From the NCBI GenBank assembly GCA_001304015.1, contig LJUY01000001.1, forward strand, positions 62,001-126,000: a stretch of DNA of 64,000 nucleotides, in the 5' to 3' direction. The translations under genes and the position numbers were made by a program. This DNA is from a candidate division Zixibacteria bacterium SM23_81. GTDB lineage: Bacteria; SM23-81. This document shows, piece by piece, positions 39,191-64,000 of this stretch. The stretch's first letter is position 1. Every line of letters starts with the position of its first letter. Below the pieces are notes generated by a model. That model was not told the DNA's origin, did no database searches, and saw nothing but the letters and a program-made list of their open reading frames with translations.

Positions 39191-39210
39191 GAGCGGGAAA
39201 AGTAAAGTAG

Positions 39211-39407
39211 AGGGTGCAGGTGCCGCCCCAGCGGAGAATAGGGAAAACGGTTGAAAACCGTGCGGCCCCGCCACTGTGATCGGCAGAATTCTCGGACTTT
39301 GCTCAGCCCGAGAATTAAGAAACGAGCCCATGTTGGCCACTGGGGAGAAAATTCCGGGAAGGCCGGCTCGTTTCATCGCTGAGAGCCAGGAGACCTGCCT
39401 GTACCCT
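39211..39407 (+). ncRNA. Cobalamin (AdoCbl) riboswitch aptamer
   Basis: B12 box gagccaggagacctgcc (39383-39399); GCGGCCCCGCCACTGTGAT core; P1 agggtgcagg (39211-39220) / cctgtaccct (39398-39407). Confidence 0.95.
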
Positions 39408-39446
39408 GCGAAACATAAGCCTTCGAGGGAAGGTGACGTTACCAAT

Positions 39447-56771: not shown

Positions 56772-57464
56772 TTATTGAACAGTTTTGTCATTAGCACAAG
56801 TAATCTCGGCAGATGCCATTTTGGCCTCGTCGTGATAACGACTTTCTGGGTAATTATCAATGAGCATCTGATAGGCCTCTATCGCTTTATCTACTTCTCC
56901 TGCAGAGAAGTAGCTGCGTCCTGCATTCATCAATGCCTCAGGGGCAGCAAAAAACTCGGGAAAATCCTCAGCTGATTTCATATAGAATTCTCCCGCCTGA
57001 GCATATTGACCCAGCTGTTCATGACAAGCAGCGATTCCTATCAAGGCTGAGCTTGTCAACAGCTCATCACGACGATATTTATCAATATAGCTCTGGAAGC
57101 TTTTTATTGCCTTTTGGTAATCGTGCAGTTTAAGGTAGATGTCTCCCAGGAAAAAAGCCGCCATACTGGCCTCCTGAGTCCCCCCATGTAAATCTATAAG
57201 AGCTTGATAGTGCTGCATAGCCTCTTGAAAATTGGCTCGTTGATATGCAATGTTGGCCTCACCGGCAAGCCGCATCACCGTTTCCTGGGTACGACTGCGA
57301 CTAGAAGTGTATACAAAAATCACGATGACCAGCACGATCACGGCTGCCAGGACGGTTAAAAAGGTGTTCTGATGTTCGCGAACAAAAGATGTCAGCTGAA
57401 AGGTCGCTGTGACAAAACGATCCTCTTTGAGGTCATGTTTACGTATCCGTTTCTTTGCAGCCAT
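56772..57464 (-). CDS. Membrane-anchored tetratricopeptide repeat protein (YfgM-like)
   Basis: TM TFLTVLAAVIVLVIVIFVYTSS followed by TPRs (ANFQEAMQHYQALIDLHGG; HDYQKAIKSFQSYIDKYR; GEVDKAIEAYQMLIDNYPES). Confidence 0.88.
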   Translation of the reverse strand: MAAKKRIRKHDLKEDRFVTATFQLTSFVREHQNTFLTVLAAVIVLVIVIFVYTSSRSRTQETVMRLAGEANIAYQRANFQEAMQHYQALIDLHGGTQEASMAAFFLGDIYLKLHDYQKAIKSFQSYIDKYRRDELLTSSALIGIAACHEQLGQYAQAGEFYMKSAEDFPEFFAAPEALMNAGRSYFSAGEVDKAIEAYQMLIDNYPESRYHDEAKMASAEITCANDKTVQ

Positions 57465-59053: not shown

Positions 59054-61261
59054 CTACCAGCAAGCTTGCCATATAGCCCCATCATAGACCATAAGCTTGT
59101 GAGTGACGCTGTCCATGTACATATCACCTTCCGCTGGGCTGGCAGGAGCAGATGATCTGGGTTCCAATCTCATTACATCATTGATATGCAATGCTCTCGC
59201 AGGCCTCGTCGTTCCAATACCCACATTCCCCGACACGGTGGAATGCAAATTGTTCCCCGAGATGGCCCAGTTGCCGACGTCACTCTTGGCAGCTTGCCAG
59301 CTGAGCGTGCCGCTGCCATCAGTCACAAGCAATTGTCCGTTGGACCTATCGGAAGCGGGAAACTCGTATCCATCGGTCTCATCGCCAAAGCGGATATGGG
59401 GCATATCGACCATAAAGGTTGAATCCTGAGTCAGCTTGCTCCCGATGCCAAAAAGATAGGAGTAATCTGCGGCAGCAGTGATGCTATCTTGATATCCTCC
59501 GAGGATTGCTGAATATGCACCTCCAACATAATTTCCACCTCCACCACCCACGGTGGCCCTACTACCGATGGCGGTGCTGTAACCTCCGCCGCCCACCGTC
59601 GCATATTGGCCGCTGACGGTGTTGCCCTTTCCGCCTCCTACGGTTGCATAGCTGCCGCCAGCGGTGTTTAAATGTCCGCCGCCCACGGTACCGGCTTCAT
59701 TGAACACGGTGTTACCTCCACCGCCGCCCACGGTCGCATAATCATCGCCGGCGTTATTGCCAGATCCGCCGCCCACAGTCGCCGAGAAGCCAGCGGCGTT
59801 GCCATAACCGCCACCGACAGTCGCACCGTTGTGTCTGGCGATGTTGCCTAACCCCCCGCCAACAGTACAGTACCTAGTAGTAATAATTGTATTCCCGGTG
59901 GTGCAGGCAACTCCTAAATTGATATGGGTATGAACACTATCACCAAACAGCATGTTACCGGCGTCACCACGGGCAACGCCGAGATAGTTAGCAGTAAACA
60001 GAACGCTATCCGGAGTGCCTCGAACCCAATCATTGTCAGTTGCTGAAGCCGAAGGGGTTTTCCAAGTCCCCTCACCCAAGGCATCGGAAGTCAACACATA
60101 ACCATCAGATGCACCCGTGGGCATCTTGAAGCCTTCCATCCGCACTGTTCCAGCCACATCCAGCTTCTCCGCCGGGTCTAGGGTTCCCAGGCCCACCTTG
60201 CTGGTGGAAAAATTGCCATAGATCAACACATCGCTAGTATCCGGTCCATTAGCGATGTAGAGCTTGCTGGAATCGGTCTCATTGTATCCGGCTTGATAGC
60301 CCAGGAAGACATTGCCGACACCAACCTGGTTGGAGTTGCCTGCATAGGTTCCCAGGTAAGTGTTCTCACTGCCCGTGGTGTTTAAGAGACCTGCTCCCCC
60401 TCCAATGAATGTGTTGTTATTGCCTTCGGTGTCAAAATAGCCTGCGATGGTTCCTAGGTACGTATTGATCGAACCTGTTGTGTGGTACTTGCCCGCCCCC
60501 CGACCCACGAAGGTGTTGTCGTTGCCTTCATTGTTTTCACCGGCTCCGAAGCCCACAAAGGTTTCGTTGCTTCCGGTATTGTTTTCTCCAGCACCAGCGC
60601 CCACGAGGACATTACCTGTACCCTCAGTGGAGAGAACTGTTTCTCCGCCGATCTTGTAAACCGAATTGATGTTGATGTCCCCGCTGACATCCAGTTTAGC
60701 CACAGGTGCAGTGATCCCGATGCCCACGGAATCAGTGTCCGTCTCCAGTCGCACGACAGTTCCATCATCGACCCATCCTCCGCTACCTCCACCACTCCGG
60801 GCATAATCTGCGCTATCCGCCTCAGCTGCCCAGAAGGCATACCCCACCGATGCGATCCGCTGCCGGGGAACCAGCTCCGGATCGCCACCTACCTGAACGC
60901 CCAGCCAACGAACAGGCTCGCTGAAAACTGTGTCCGGGATGCTATTCACACTACCCAATAGAACATTGAAAATGCCACTGCTCACCACCACCGCTGGCTG
61001 GGTTTCCGTCCATAAAGCAGTCCCTCCTACAGAAAGTGGGTAAATAGAAAAGGTCATGGAGACGGTGGTGTCCAGTGCCACACCGAATTCATCCGTGAGG
61101 GTGCCCTGATAGTTGATCAGGCCGGGGACGCCCTGGGATAAGTCCAGGTTGCGAGCGCCGTCATCAAGGCTCACCATCTTCCTGGCCGCCTGGGCAGTGG
61201 AGCAGAGAATGCAGATCAAGACAGCCAGAACCATGTTCATCGCAAGATTCCTCACTCTCAT
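59054..61261 (-). CDS. Secreted repeat protein: conserved N-terminal domain + 16/17-aa NTFVGxxAG array + ATVGGG array
   Basis: Signal peptide; GLINYQGTLTDEFGVALDTTVSMTFSIYPLSVGGTALWTETQPAVVVSSGIFNVLLGSV; GIGITAPVAKLDVSGDI; two distinct repeat arrays. Confidence 0.88.
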   Translation of the reverse strand: MRVRNLAMNMVLAVLICILCSTAQAARKMVSLDDGARNLDLSQGVPGLINYQGTLTDEFGVALDTTVSMTFSIYPLSVGGTALWTETQPAVVVSSGIFNVLLGSVNSIPDTVFSEPVRWLGVQVGGDPELVPRQRIASVGYAFWAAEADSADYARSGGGSGGWVDDGTVVRLETDTDSVGIGITAPVAKLDVSGDININSVYKIGGETVLSTEGTGNVLVGAGAGENNTGSNETFVGFGAGENNEGNDNTFVGRGAGKYHTTGSINTYLGTIAGYFDTEGNNNTFIGGGAGLLNTTGSENTYLGTYAGNSNQVGVGNVFLGYQAGYNETDSSKLYIANGPDTSDVLIYGNFSTSKVGLGTLDPAEKLDVAGTVRMEGFKMPTGASDGYVLTSDALGEGTWKTPSASATDNDWVRGTPDSVLFTANYLGVARGDAGNMLFGDSVHTHINLGVACTTGNTIITTRYCTVGGGLGNIARHNGATVGGGYGNAAGFSATVGGGSGNNAGDDYATVGGGGGNTVFNEAGTVGGGHLNTAGGSYATVGGGKGNTVSGQYATVGGGGYSTAIGSRATVGGGGGNYVGGAYSAILGGYQDSITAAADYSYLFGIGSKLTQDSTFMVDMPHIRFGDETDGYEFPASDRSNGQLLVTDGSGTLSWQAAKSDVGNWAISGNNLHSTVSGNVGIGTTRPARALHINDVMRLEPRSSAPASPAEGDMYMDSVTHKLMVYDGAIWQACW
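59500..59875 (-). repeat. ATVGGGxxNxA-type repeat array (YadA-head-like) within CDS
   Basis: ATVGGGYGNAAGFS / ATVGGGSGNNAGDDY / ATVGGGKGNTVSGQY / ATVGGGGYSTAIGSR / ... Confidence 0.85.
60262..60620 (-). repeat. 7-unit 16/17-aa NTFVGxxAG array
   Basis: NVLVGAGAGENNTGSN ETFVGFGAGENNEGND NTFVGRGAGKYHTTGSI NTYLGTIAGYFDTEGNN NTFIGGGAGLLNTTGSE NTYLGTYAGNSNQVGVG NVFLGYQAGYNETDSSK. Confidence 0.88.
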
Positions 61262-61330: not shown

Positions 61331-63991
61331 CTATATCTTCTTGACAGTAGAAAGCAGGTTGCCATCCAGATCACGAAACTCGCCATCCTCGGGCAGATAG
61401 ACCTCGAAGCGCTTGTCCTGGCCGTTCCAGAACAACACCGCCCCGTTTTGCTTGTCCTCAGGCACCTCCTCAGCGACTCGGTCGATGATGGCCGCTCTGG
61501 ATTCCTTATTGTAGAGCACATAAGGGGGGTCGTTGCCACCGACGCTGGTCAGCTTGCCGGTGCAGTAGATATTTCCAACGACGTGGAGCTCTTGTGTAGG
61601 CACCATCGTCCCGATGCCCACCTTGCCGGTTGAAAAATCGCCGTATATCAACACATCGCTGTTATCTTTGTCATTGGCGATGTAAAGCTTGTTGGAGCCG
61701 GTCTCATAATATCCTGCCTTATGGCCGACAAAGACATTGCCCGTGCCCGTAATGTTGGAATAGCCCGCATGTCGTCCCAGGAATGTGTTGTCAGAGCCGG
61801 TGGTATTTTTATAGCCGGAGGCGGAGCCCAGGAATGTGTTGTCAGAACCCTCGGTGTTGGAATAGCCTGCGGCCTGCCCCAGGTATGTGTTGGAACCGCC
61901 GGTGCTATTGCTGTAGCCCGCACGCCGTCCCACAAAAACGTTGTCCCCGCCTTGGTTGTTCAACCCGGCAGAGGCTCCCACAAAAGTCGCATACCCTCCT
62001 GTATTATTCCCCCCGGCACCGGCGCCAACGAACACGTTCTGTGAGCCCTCGGTGGAAAGCACAGTACTGCCGCCGATCTTATAGAGAGAATCGGTGTTGA
62101 CATCTCCGTCGACATCGAGCATGGCAGAAGGACTGGTGGTCCCGATGCCCACCTGGCCGGTTGAAAAATCGCCGTAGATTAAAACGTCGCTTGCTCCTGA
62201 ACCATTGGCGATATAAAGCTTGTCTGAATCCGTCTCATTGTATCCAGCCTGAAAGCCGAGAAAGACATTGCCCTGGCCGGTGGTGTTTTCATGGCCGGCC
62301 TTATACCCGACGAATGTGTTTTCATCGCCTGTTTCGTTCCGGTAGCCGGCATCACTTCCAACGAATGTGTTGTAATACCCTTCGGCGTTGTAGATGCCTG
62401 CGGCGGTTCCCAGGAACGTGTTGCTGTTGCCTGTCTCGTTATTGTGGCCAGCGGACATTCCTACAAATGTGTTCGAATGAGCCGTGGTATTGTTGCAGCC
62501 AGCTTTATTTCCCAGAAATGTATTGTATTGTCCTGTCGTGTTGGCGAAACCTGTGTACAATCCTACGAATGTATTGAAACTGGCCCCGATGTTGTTGTAG
62601 CCTGCATACCCTCCAACGAACGTGTTTTCATTGCCTGTTTCATTCGAGTATCCCGAATATGGTCCTAAAAGGGTATTGTCGTTTCCGACAGTATTGGAGT
62701 ATCCTGCCTTATACCCTACGAAGGCGTTTTCATCACCTGTTTCATTCGAGTAGCCGGCATCACTTCCAACGAATGTGTTGTAATACCCTTCGGTGTTATA
62801 GAGACCTGCAGCGGTTCCCAAGAATGTATTGCTGTAACCGGTCTCATTACTGTGTCCAGCAGACATTCCTATAAATGTGTTGGAATGGGCTGTGGTATTG
62901 TCATGACCGGCGTTATTGCCCACAAATGTGTTGTATTCACCTGTGGTATTATCGAAGCCGGTATATGATCCAACGAATGTGTTGGAACTGGCCCCGATGT
63001 TGTGCAAGCCGGCAGCCCTTCCCACGAATGTGTTGTAATCGCCTTCGGTATTGTCTGAGCCGGCGGCACATCCTATGAAAACGTTGTTGCTACCCTGGTT
63101 GGTTTTTCCAGTCTGATATCCTATGAAGGTTCCATAGCTTCCAGTATTATTTAGCCCAGCGTCAACACCTGCAAAGACATTCTGTGTGCCCGGGGCGGAG
63201 AGCACCGGATTTCCACCTATTGTATAAAGGGAATCCGTATTGACATCTCCATTGACATCGAGCCTGGCCGAGGGGCTGGAGGTTCCAATGCCCACATTGC
63301 CATCTTGCTGAACGACAAAATCTGCCTCCCAGGAGCTGCCCCCATTCTCACTGGTAGCAACCGTAAAGATATTGTTGGAACCGGCACCGTCGGTGAACAT
63401 CAACATCTGCCGTTGAGTGCCGTCGTTACTGCCGATACCAATACCACCATAATCGATGTAATCTTTCCAACCCCCGCCACTATATGGAGTCACCTCCTGA
63501 ATCTCATATTTGGCCGCTCCGCTACCCATCCTCAAGGCCCCCTTGACTTGCAGTTTCGCCTGCGGGCTGGCCGTCCCGATGCCCACATTACCGGAAACGG
63601 CCGAATACATGTTGCTTCCCGCAATCGTCCAGTCCCCGTCGCTGGCGGCAGTAGCACTTCGGGCATACTCGGCCGTATCGGCCCCTGTGGCTCGAAAGGC
63701 ATAGCCCGCAGCAACAATGCGCTGTCTTGGCTCTAGCTCGGGATCGCTCTCTACCTGAACTCCCAACCAACGTGACACCCCGTTAAACACCGTGTCCGAA
63801 ATGGCGTTCACCCGACCCAGAAGGACGTTGAACAGTCCGTGGTCCACCTCAACTGCAGGCTGAGTCTCAGACCATACCTGAGTACCTCCGGTTGAGTCAG
63901 TATAGATGGTAAAGGTCATGTCAACGGTGGTGTCCAACGCCACGCCGTACTCGTCTGTGAGTATGCCCTGGTAGTTAATCATACCAGGCAC
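61331..63991 (-). CDS. Giant secreted repeat protein, paralogue of 59054-61261; N-terminus continues beyond window
   Basis: PGMINYQGILTDEYGVALDTTVDMTFTIYTDSTGGTQVWSETQPAVEVDHGLFNVLLGRV; 19-unit and 7-unit NTFVGxxAG arrays; C-terminal NGAVLFWNGQDKRFEVYLPEDGEFRDLDGNLLSTVKKI; no S74 peptidase seen. Confidence 0.88.
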   Translation of the reverse strand: MPGMINYQGILTDEYGVALDTTVDMTFTIYTDSTGGTQVWSETQPAVEVDHGLFNVLLGRVNAISDTVFNGVSRWLGVQVESDPELEPRQRIVAAGYAFRATGADTAEYARSATAASDGDWTIAGSNMYSAVSGNVGIGTASPQAKLQVKGALRMGSGAAKYEIQEVTPYSGGGWKDYIDYGGIGIGSNDGTQRQMLMFTDGAGSNNIFTVATSENGGSSWEADFVVQQDGNVGIGTSSPSARLDVNGDVNTDSLYTIGGNPVLSAPGTQNVFAGVDAGLNNTGSYGTFIGYQTGKTNQGSNNVFIGCAAGSDNTEGDYNTFVGRAAGLHNIGASSNTFVGSYTGFDNTTGEYNTFVGNNAGHDNTTAHSNTFIGMSAGHSNETGYSNTFLGTAAGLYNTEGYYNTFVGSDAGYSNETGDENAFVGYKAGYSNTVGNDNTLLGPYSGYSNETGNENTFVGGYAGYNNIGASFNTFVGLYTGFANTTGQYNTFLGNKAGCNNTTAHSNTFVGMSAGHNNETGNSNTFLGTAAGIYNAEGYYNTFVGSDAGYRNETGDENTFVGYKAGHENTTGQGNVFLGFQAGYNETDSDKLYIANGSGASDVLIYGDFSTGQVGIGTTSPSAMLDVDGDVNTDSLYKIGGSTVLSTEGSQNVFVGAGAGGNNTGGYATFVGASAGLNNQGGDNVFVGRRAGYSNSTGGSNTYLGQAAGYSNTEGSDNTFLGSASGYKNTTGSDNTFLGRHAGYSNITGTGNVFVGHKAGYYETGSNKLYIANDKDNSDVLIYGDFSTGKVGIGTMVPTQELHVVGNIYCTGKLTSVGGNDPPYVLYNKESRAAIIDRVAEEVPEDKQNGAVLFWNGQDKRFEVYLPEDGEFRDLDGNLLSTVKKI
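61689..62041 (-). repeat. 7-unit 16/17-aa array
   Basis: NVFVGAGAGGNNTGGY ATFVGASAGLNNQGGD NVFVGRRAGYSNSTGGS NTYLGQAAGYSNTEGSD NTFLGSASGYKNTTGSD NTFLGRHAGYSNITGTG NVFVGHKAGYYETGSNK. Confidence 0.88.
62220..63184 (-). repeat. Expanded ~19-unit 16/17-aa (48/51-nt) array containing a 408-bp super-repeat
   Basis: Units from NVFAGVDAGLNNTGSY to NVFLGFQAGYNETDSDK; shared block ctggccccgatgttg at 62580 and 62988 (offset 408). Confidence 0.88.
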
Positions 63992-64000
63992 ATCTGCCAG

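Follow-up and report, generated by a model that had tools for sequence, protein, structure and literature searches.

In-frame duplication of a multi-unit block in the 17-residue repeat array of a MAT-like fibre gene from a candidate division Zixibacteria bacterium

The 17-residue repeats NTFVGxxAGxxNTTGxx at one end of the DNA analysed here (a stretch of 64,000 nt from candidate division Zixibacteria bacterium SM23_81, contig LJUY01000001.1, called the window below) raise the question of whether an array of 19 such units was built unit by unit or by the copying of a larger block. The first-pass annotation had proposed an exact 408-bp super-repeat of 8 units that arose by block duplication rather than by unit-by-unit slippage and then diverged at the xx positions. 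The gene and its surroundings have the following layout.

61331..64000, minus strand: gene for a putative MAT-like or tail-fibre-like surface fibre, 908 aa in full (ORF L021:2832-5558)
63812..64000, minus strand: N-terminal INYQG domain, resembling that of the MAT fibres in Bdellovibrio (NF053851); the match runs on to ~64021
62219..63181, minus strand: module 1 array, 19 units of ~17 aa, seen in the sequence; predicted to fold as a solenoid, roughly one strand to each 17 residues
61688..62038, minus strand: module 2, an array of the same type with 7 units, found by alignment to module 1
59054..61261, minus strand: neighbouring 735-aa paralogue that combines a 7-unit 17-mer array with ATVGGG repeats (Bdello_MAT_N E 2.9e-6, below the cut-off)

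The fibre gene starts at ~64057, its first 57 nt falling outside the window, and the N-terminus of the 908-aa protein, MKAIAFMVVLALLLLSTAVLA, is signal-peptide-like. In the genome search, NF053851 (Bdello_MAT_N) hit the gene with E 6.5e-6 and 26.8 bits, against a curated cut-off of 60 bits; scanning of the whole 908-aa protein with this model gave no match at E <= 1. Pfam and NCBIfam scans of the protein itself matched no family: neither S74 nor, in Pfam, YadA_head (PF05658) was found, and Pfam matched nothing at the C-terminus, where a YadA-type beta-barrel anchor would lie. The fibre capping-loop motif VGIGTxxPxxxL recurs in the gene and in its paralogues. The ATVGGG repeats of the 735-aa neighbour are 15 residues each. 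Elsewhere, the window holds a cobalamin riboswitch (39201-39416, plus strand, 86.7 bits) and a gene for a 230-aa protein (56772-57464) in which a membrane helix at the N-terminus was recognised by eye, as were TPR-like repeats.

The larger module that bears the array occurs twice in the 908-aa gene and once in the neighbouring gene. In the alignments, module 2 is shorter than module 1 by exactly 12 units (204 aa), and module 1 exceeds the module of the neighbouring gene by 204 residues, 12 units, too. Indeed, the offsets between the two modules are 1143 on the N side and 531 on the C side, and the difference of 612 (12 x 51) agrees with the 12-unit alignment gap.

Within module 1, the peptide series quoted in the first-pass annotation does recur on the minus strand with an offset of exactly 408 nt (8 x 51), and tggccccgatgttg is found at both 62581 and 62989. 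When every offset between 20 and 700 was compared, this one scored highest, with 63% identity over the whole array overlap; the runner-up, 102, reached 55%. The block is made up as follows.

62703..63044, minus strand: copy A, 342 nt, with 82% DNA identity to copy B at offset 408
62295..62636, minus strand: copy B, 342 nt, with 82% DNA identity to copy A
62637..62702, minus strand: stretch of 66 nt between the copies, which takes in half of unit 8 together with most of unit 9 (~1.3 units) and in which the identity at offset 408 drops to background

Thus, the spacing of the proposed super-repeat is exact but its sequence is not, and of the 8-unit period only ~6.7 units survive as a duplicate, with 92 of 111 residues identical. 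The unit pairs 2/10 to 7/15 are 80, 75, 75, 84, 84 and 92% identical, whereas other unit pairs average ~56%, and none of 20,000 unit-order shuffles matched the observed 6-unit diagonal. The block is also visible at synonymous sites, with a pS of 0.48 at lag 8 versus 0.64 to 0.74 at lags 1 to 7 and 9 to 11. The annotation had named the comparison of the two blocks with the other units as the one that could speak against duplication; in fact, the blocks are clearly more alike, and its claim of block duplication rather than slippage stands. At the block edges, only half of unit 8 is shared, and units 1/9 (43%) and 9/17 (39%) are unshared. The 66-nt stretch is unlike both the flank before copy A and the flank after copy B, and the junction between the copies does not have the perfect tandem structure expected from a fresh duplication.

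The block duplication accounts for 8 of the 12 extra units of module 1; the remainder would be older. A resemblance at lag 12 may also be present (150 nt, 70%). An older 4-unit duplication was considered as well and rejected, the lag-4 class mean of 61% versus ~57% being too weak to claim.

Over 111 aligned codons, copies A and B gave a dS of 0.73, a dN of 0.098 and a dN/dS of 0.13. The dN was 0.02 at the conserved framework positions and the dN/dS was 0.46 at the variable positions, these values per class being rough with so few sites in each. The proposed divergence at the xx positions holds for the amino acid changes, 20 of 23 of which lie there, but most of the differences between the copies (38 of 61) are synonymous. 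Moreover, the variable residues are kept in register, with a mean of 5.3 of 8 per unit between the copies versus 1.3 for other unit pairs. It follows from this retention and the dN/dS pattern that the copies are old and that the surface of each unit has been preserved, and we read their divergence as relaxed purifying selection, not diversification. One further feature lies within the copies.

62750..62793 with its partner 62342..62385, minus strand: identical tract of 44 nt, the longest exact repeat in 59054-64000

Codon shuffles rarely give a tract of such length (P about 0.0006 to 0.002, in a test made after the tract had been seen); it is therefore unexpected by chance and suggests a later local gene conversion between the copies.

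In our judgement, the array probably belongs to a MAT-like or tail-fibre-like surface fibre that was lengthened by in-frame tandem duplication of ~8 units through recombination between units. The ancestral module 1 would have been a short array of ~7 units, as module 2 and the neighbouring gene still have. A block of ~8 units was then duplicated in tandem and in frame, at least once, for which the simplest route would be that similar units of sister copies recombined; with the frame and the 17-residue phase preserved, the fibre merely became longer. Afterwards, purifying selection acted on the copies while they diverged at their synonymous sites, a local conversion tract would have passed between them, and ~1.3 units at the junction would have been lost or replaced. 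The data show the duplication with its phase, the pattern of selection and the gene family; that the fibre is a trimer, lies on the surface and adheres, and that recombination was the cause, are inferences. The product would be a secreted, probably trimeric fibre that carries a signal peptide, is exposed at the cell surface and may act in adhesion, with the conserved N-terminal domain anchoring it to the cell. Its shaft is predicted to be beta-rich with VGIGTxxPxxxL capping loops, and each 17-residue unit would form one beta-solenoid rung. The array was absent from one genome of the same family and two of the same phylum (60 genomes searched). Since no close relative carries it, the state before the duplication is not visible in an orthologue.

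A different source of the second block is conceivable, although we regard it as unlikely: recombination may have brought it in, with a paralogous gene of the fibre family or a tail-fibre gene of a phage as donor in place of its own neighbour. Donors of this kind are at hand, as ~25 paralogues and phage fibres have the repeat or its setting, and the 66-nt junction resembles neither flank. However, no paralogue carries anything more than 55% identical to the block, compared with 82% between the copies (the genome is incomplete and an unseen donor possible), and the best viral or genomic relatives reach 35 to 42% at the protein level. Less probable again is an old array that never underwent a duplication and in which gene conversion, or selection for a structural period of 8 units, maintained the similarity of units at lag 8. 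The 44-nt identical tract suggests that conversion does occur, but the similarity at lag 8 is limited to one contiguous stretch of 342 nt and includes synonymous sites, and in none of the other arrays examined is lag 8 the one that gives the best block. Ten arrays of at least 8 units were compared by shuffling: the block of module 1 alone was highly significant, none of 2,000 shuffles equalling it, and two further arrays were marginal at ~0.04 and would not survive correction.

Stepwise slippage of single units, with the resemblance at lag 8 being incidental, is contradicted by the data and very improbable: the arrays of Hymenobacter look homogenised in that way, but here the shuffles never reach the diagonal and units at lag 1 are only 56% identical, no closer than distant ones. 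There is equally little chance of an artefact of the fragmented draft assembly, in which several contigs end within these fibre genes: with differences at 18% of positions and a longest exact match of 44 nt, compared with 102 identical bases in the overlap of two contig ends, copies A and B could be separated by the assembler.

Where else does the 17-residue repeat occur? The array was matched by PHROG 6002 (E 1e-44) and PHROG 4636 (E 4e-39), one of which models a tail spike and the other a virion structural protein, and is present in 73 phage records, in Hymenobacter plasmids and in a tail-fibre-like gene of a viral contig. Phage tail fibres and tailspikes (PHROG 4636 and 6002; SPO1 gp2.52, Roseobacter phage CRP-1 gp37) have the same repeat as the 908-aa gene, with N at position 1, G at position 5 and N at position 12. 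Pfam scans of the phage examples revealed S74 at the C-terminus, one just under the cut-off, and two Zixibacteria paralogues end in S74 as well. In contrast to phage fibres, the 908-aa gene is cellular, with a signal peptide, a MAT-like N-terminal domain and no S74, and its neighbours in the window are cellular too, e.g., leucyl-tRNA synthetase. A DNA-level search in phages gave no match, and a search of the named genome relatives gave two weak matches only. The 'tail fiber domain-containing' proteins on plasmids of Hymenobacter volaticus (Bacteroidota) align with 90% of module 1 at ~42% identity and have the same unit length, but their arrays are homogenised (66 to 71% between all units) and have no significant long block, and the proteins end in S74. 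The H. volaticus plasmid NZ_CP095065.1 matched the array in 13 places, so the repeat has multiplied there too. A likeness to trimeric autotransporter adhesins is seen in those Zixibacteria paralogues that carry true YadA_head repeats (PF05658). The YadA_head repeats of autotransporters form left-handed beta-rolls. The repeat of the 908-aa gene itself differs in that Pfam does not match it, and a search for a YadA beta-barrel anchor found none.

No Pfam model in the release used covers the 17-mer, no solved structure was found for it by sequence, and a literature search for the motif returned nothing relevant. An AlphaFold model of module 1, a monomer built from 3 sequences, had a mean pLDDT of 67 (~70 to 85 in the array) and placed a short strand at intervals of about 17 residues. 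The model matched predicted models of viral adhesion or fibre type with a best E of 1.6e-8 and modest TM-scores (~0.3 to 0.5); a fold search of the PDB gave no match at E <= 0.001.

The comparison with Bdellovibrio concerns the gene family as a whole. The MATs of Bdellovibrio bacteriovorus are 21 trimeric fibres, 13 with and 8 without S74, that have a conserved domain of ~130 aa after the signal peptide (PMC10769870). The sole PDB match by sequence was 8OML (E 0.00087), with which one VGIGTxxPxxxL-type loop aligns and which is the MAT fibre Bd1334 (PMC10769870). Like the MATs, the Zixibacteria fibres form a large paralogous family with a signal peptide, a conserved N-terminal domain and a capping-loop motif; paralogues have the N-terminus in common, their distal parts are mosaic and their C-terminal tips variable, and members with and without S74 are both present. 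The published MAT capping-loop consensus is similar to VGIGTxxPxxxL, not identical letter for letter. Display on the surface and the binding of prey glycans are further traits of the MATs. Differences are that the Zixibacteria N-terminal domain scores under the curated cut-off of NF053851, that 17-mer and YadA-head arrays fill much of the shaft, that the C-terminal tips differ, and that the genome is not that of a demonstrated predator. Since Bdello_MAT_N nowhere in the genome reaches its family cut-off, we describe the 908-aa gene as MAT-like and not as a proven MAT; what the sequence suggests is likeness, not membership.

The genome (3.07 Mb, 99 contigs) encodes ~25 paralogous ORFs, several of which are cut by contig ends. 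These fibre paralogues lie on contigs C10, C17, C23, C26, C29, C30, C36, C40, C47, C51, C72, C80, C85 and C87 (loci L021-L035); their true number and lengths are uncertain because many contigs end inside them. Two of them, at the ends of L022 and L034 (C51 and C47), stop within a stretch of 270 nt that is 92% identical between them. Most paralogues share the INYQG-type N-terminal domain and the VGIGTxxPxxxL loops and differ distally, where 17-mer, YadA_head or ATVGGG arrays, S74 chaperones or other C-termini are found. Bdello_MAT_N matched 16 places in the genome at E <= 1e-3, all below 60 bits, including the best match, in a paralogue (E 4.7e-10). S74 (PF13884) was found in two paralogues, one in L027 and one in L030 (E 1.3e-17 and 4.6e-18), and YadA_head in 5 of the 10 paralogues scanned, down to E 1.7e-46. 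Other members of the family also contain in-frame duplications: in a 988-aa paralogue (L026:3-2966), a module of 458 nt is duplicated at 86% with the copies 1506 nt apart, and in a 524-aa paralogue (L030:1747-3318) the duplicated stretch spans 486 nt, is 85% identical and has a period of 76 aa. In the latter, the 76-residue segment is repeated ~3 times at 80 to 85% DNA identity, and S74 stands at the end.

The array of module 1 is a clear example of how a solenoid fibre is lengthened by a multi-unit in-frame copy whose unit surface residues then come under purifying selection, although a block this clear is seen in one of the ten arrays examined. In-frame block copying is an ordinary route of lengthening for phage-tail-like and adhesin fibres, and the MAT-like family context is more interesting than the duplication itself. 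More useful is the pointer that the locus gives to a large family of MAT-like fibres beyond Bdellovibrio; in it, a MAT-like anchor domain is joined to 17-mer arrays of the kind familiar from phage fibres. Tentatively, and with considerable doubt, this sparsely sampled Zixibacteria lineage may have an expanded repertoire of MAT-like fibres of the size seen in Bdellovibrio, the shafts and tips of which would be remodelled by in-frame block duplication and recombination, thereby tuning fibre length and surface to different partner or prey cells.
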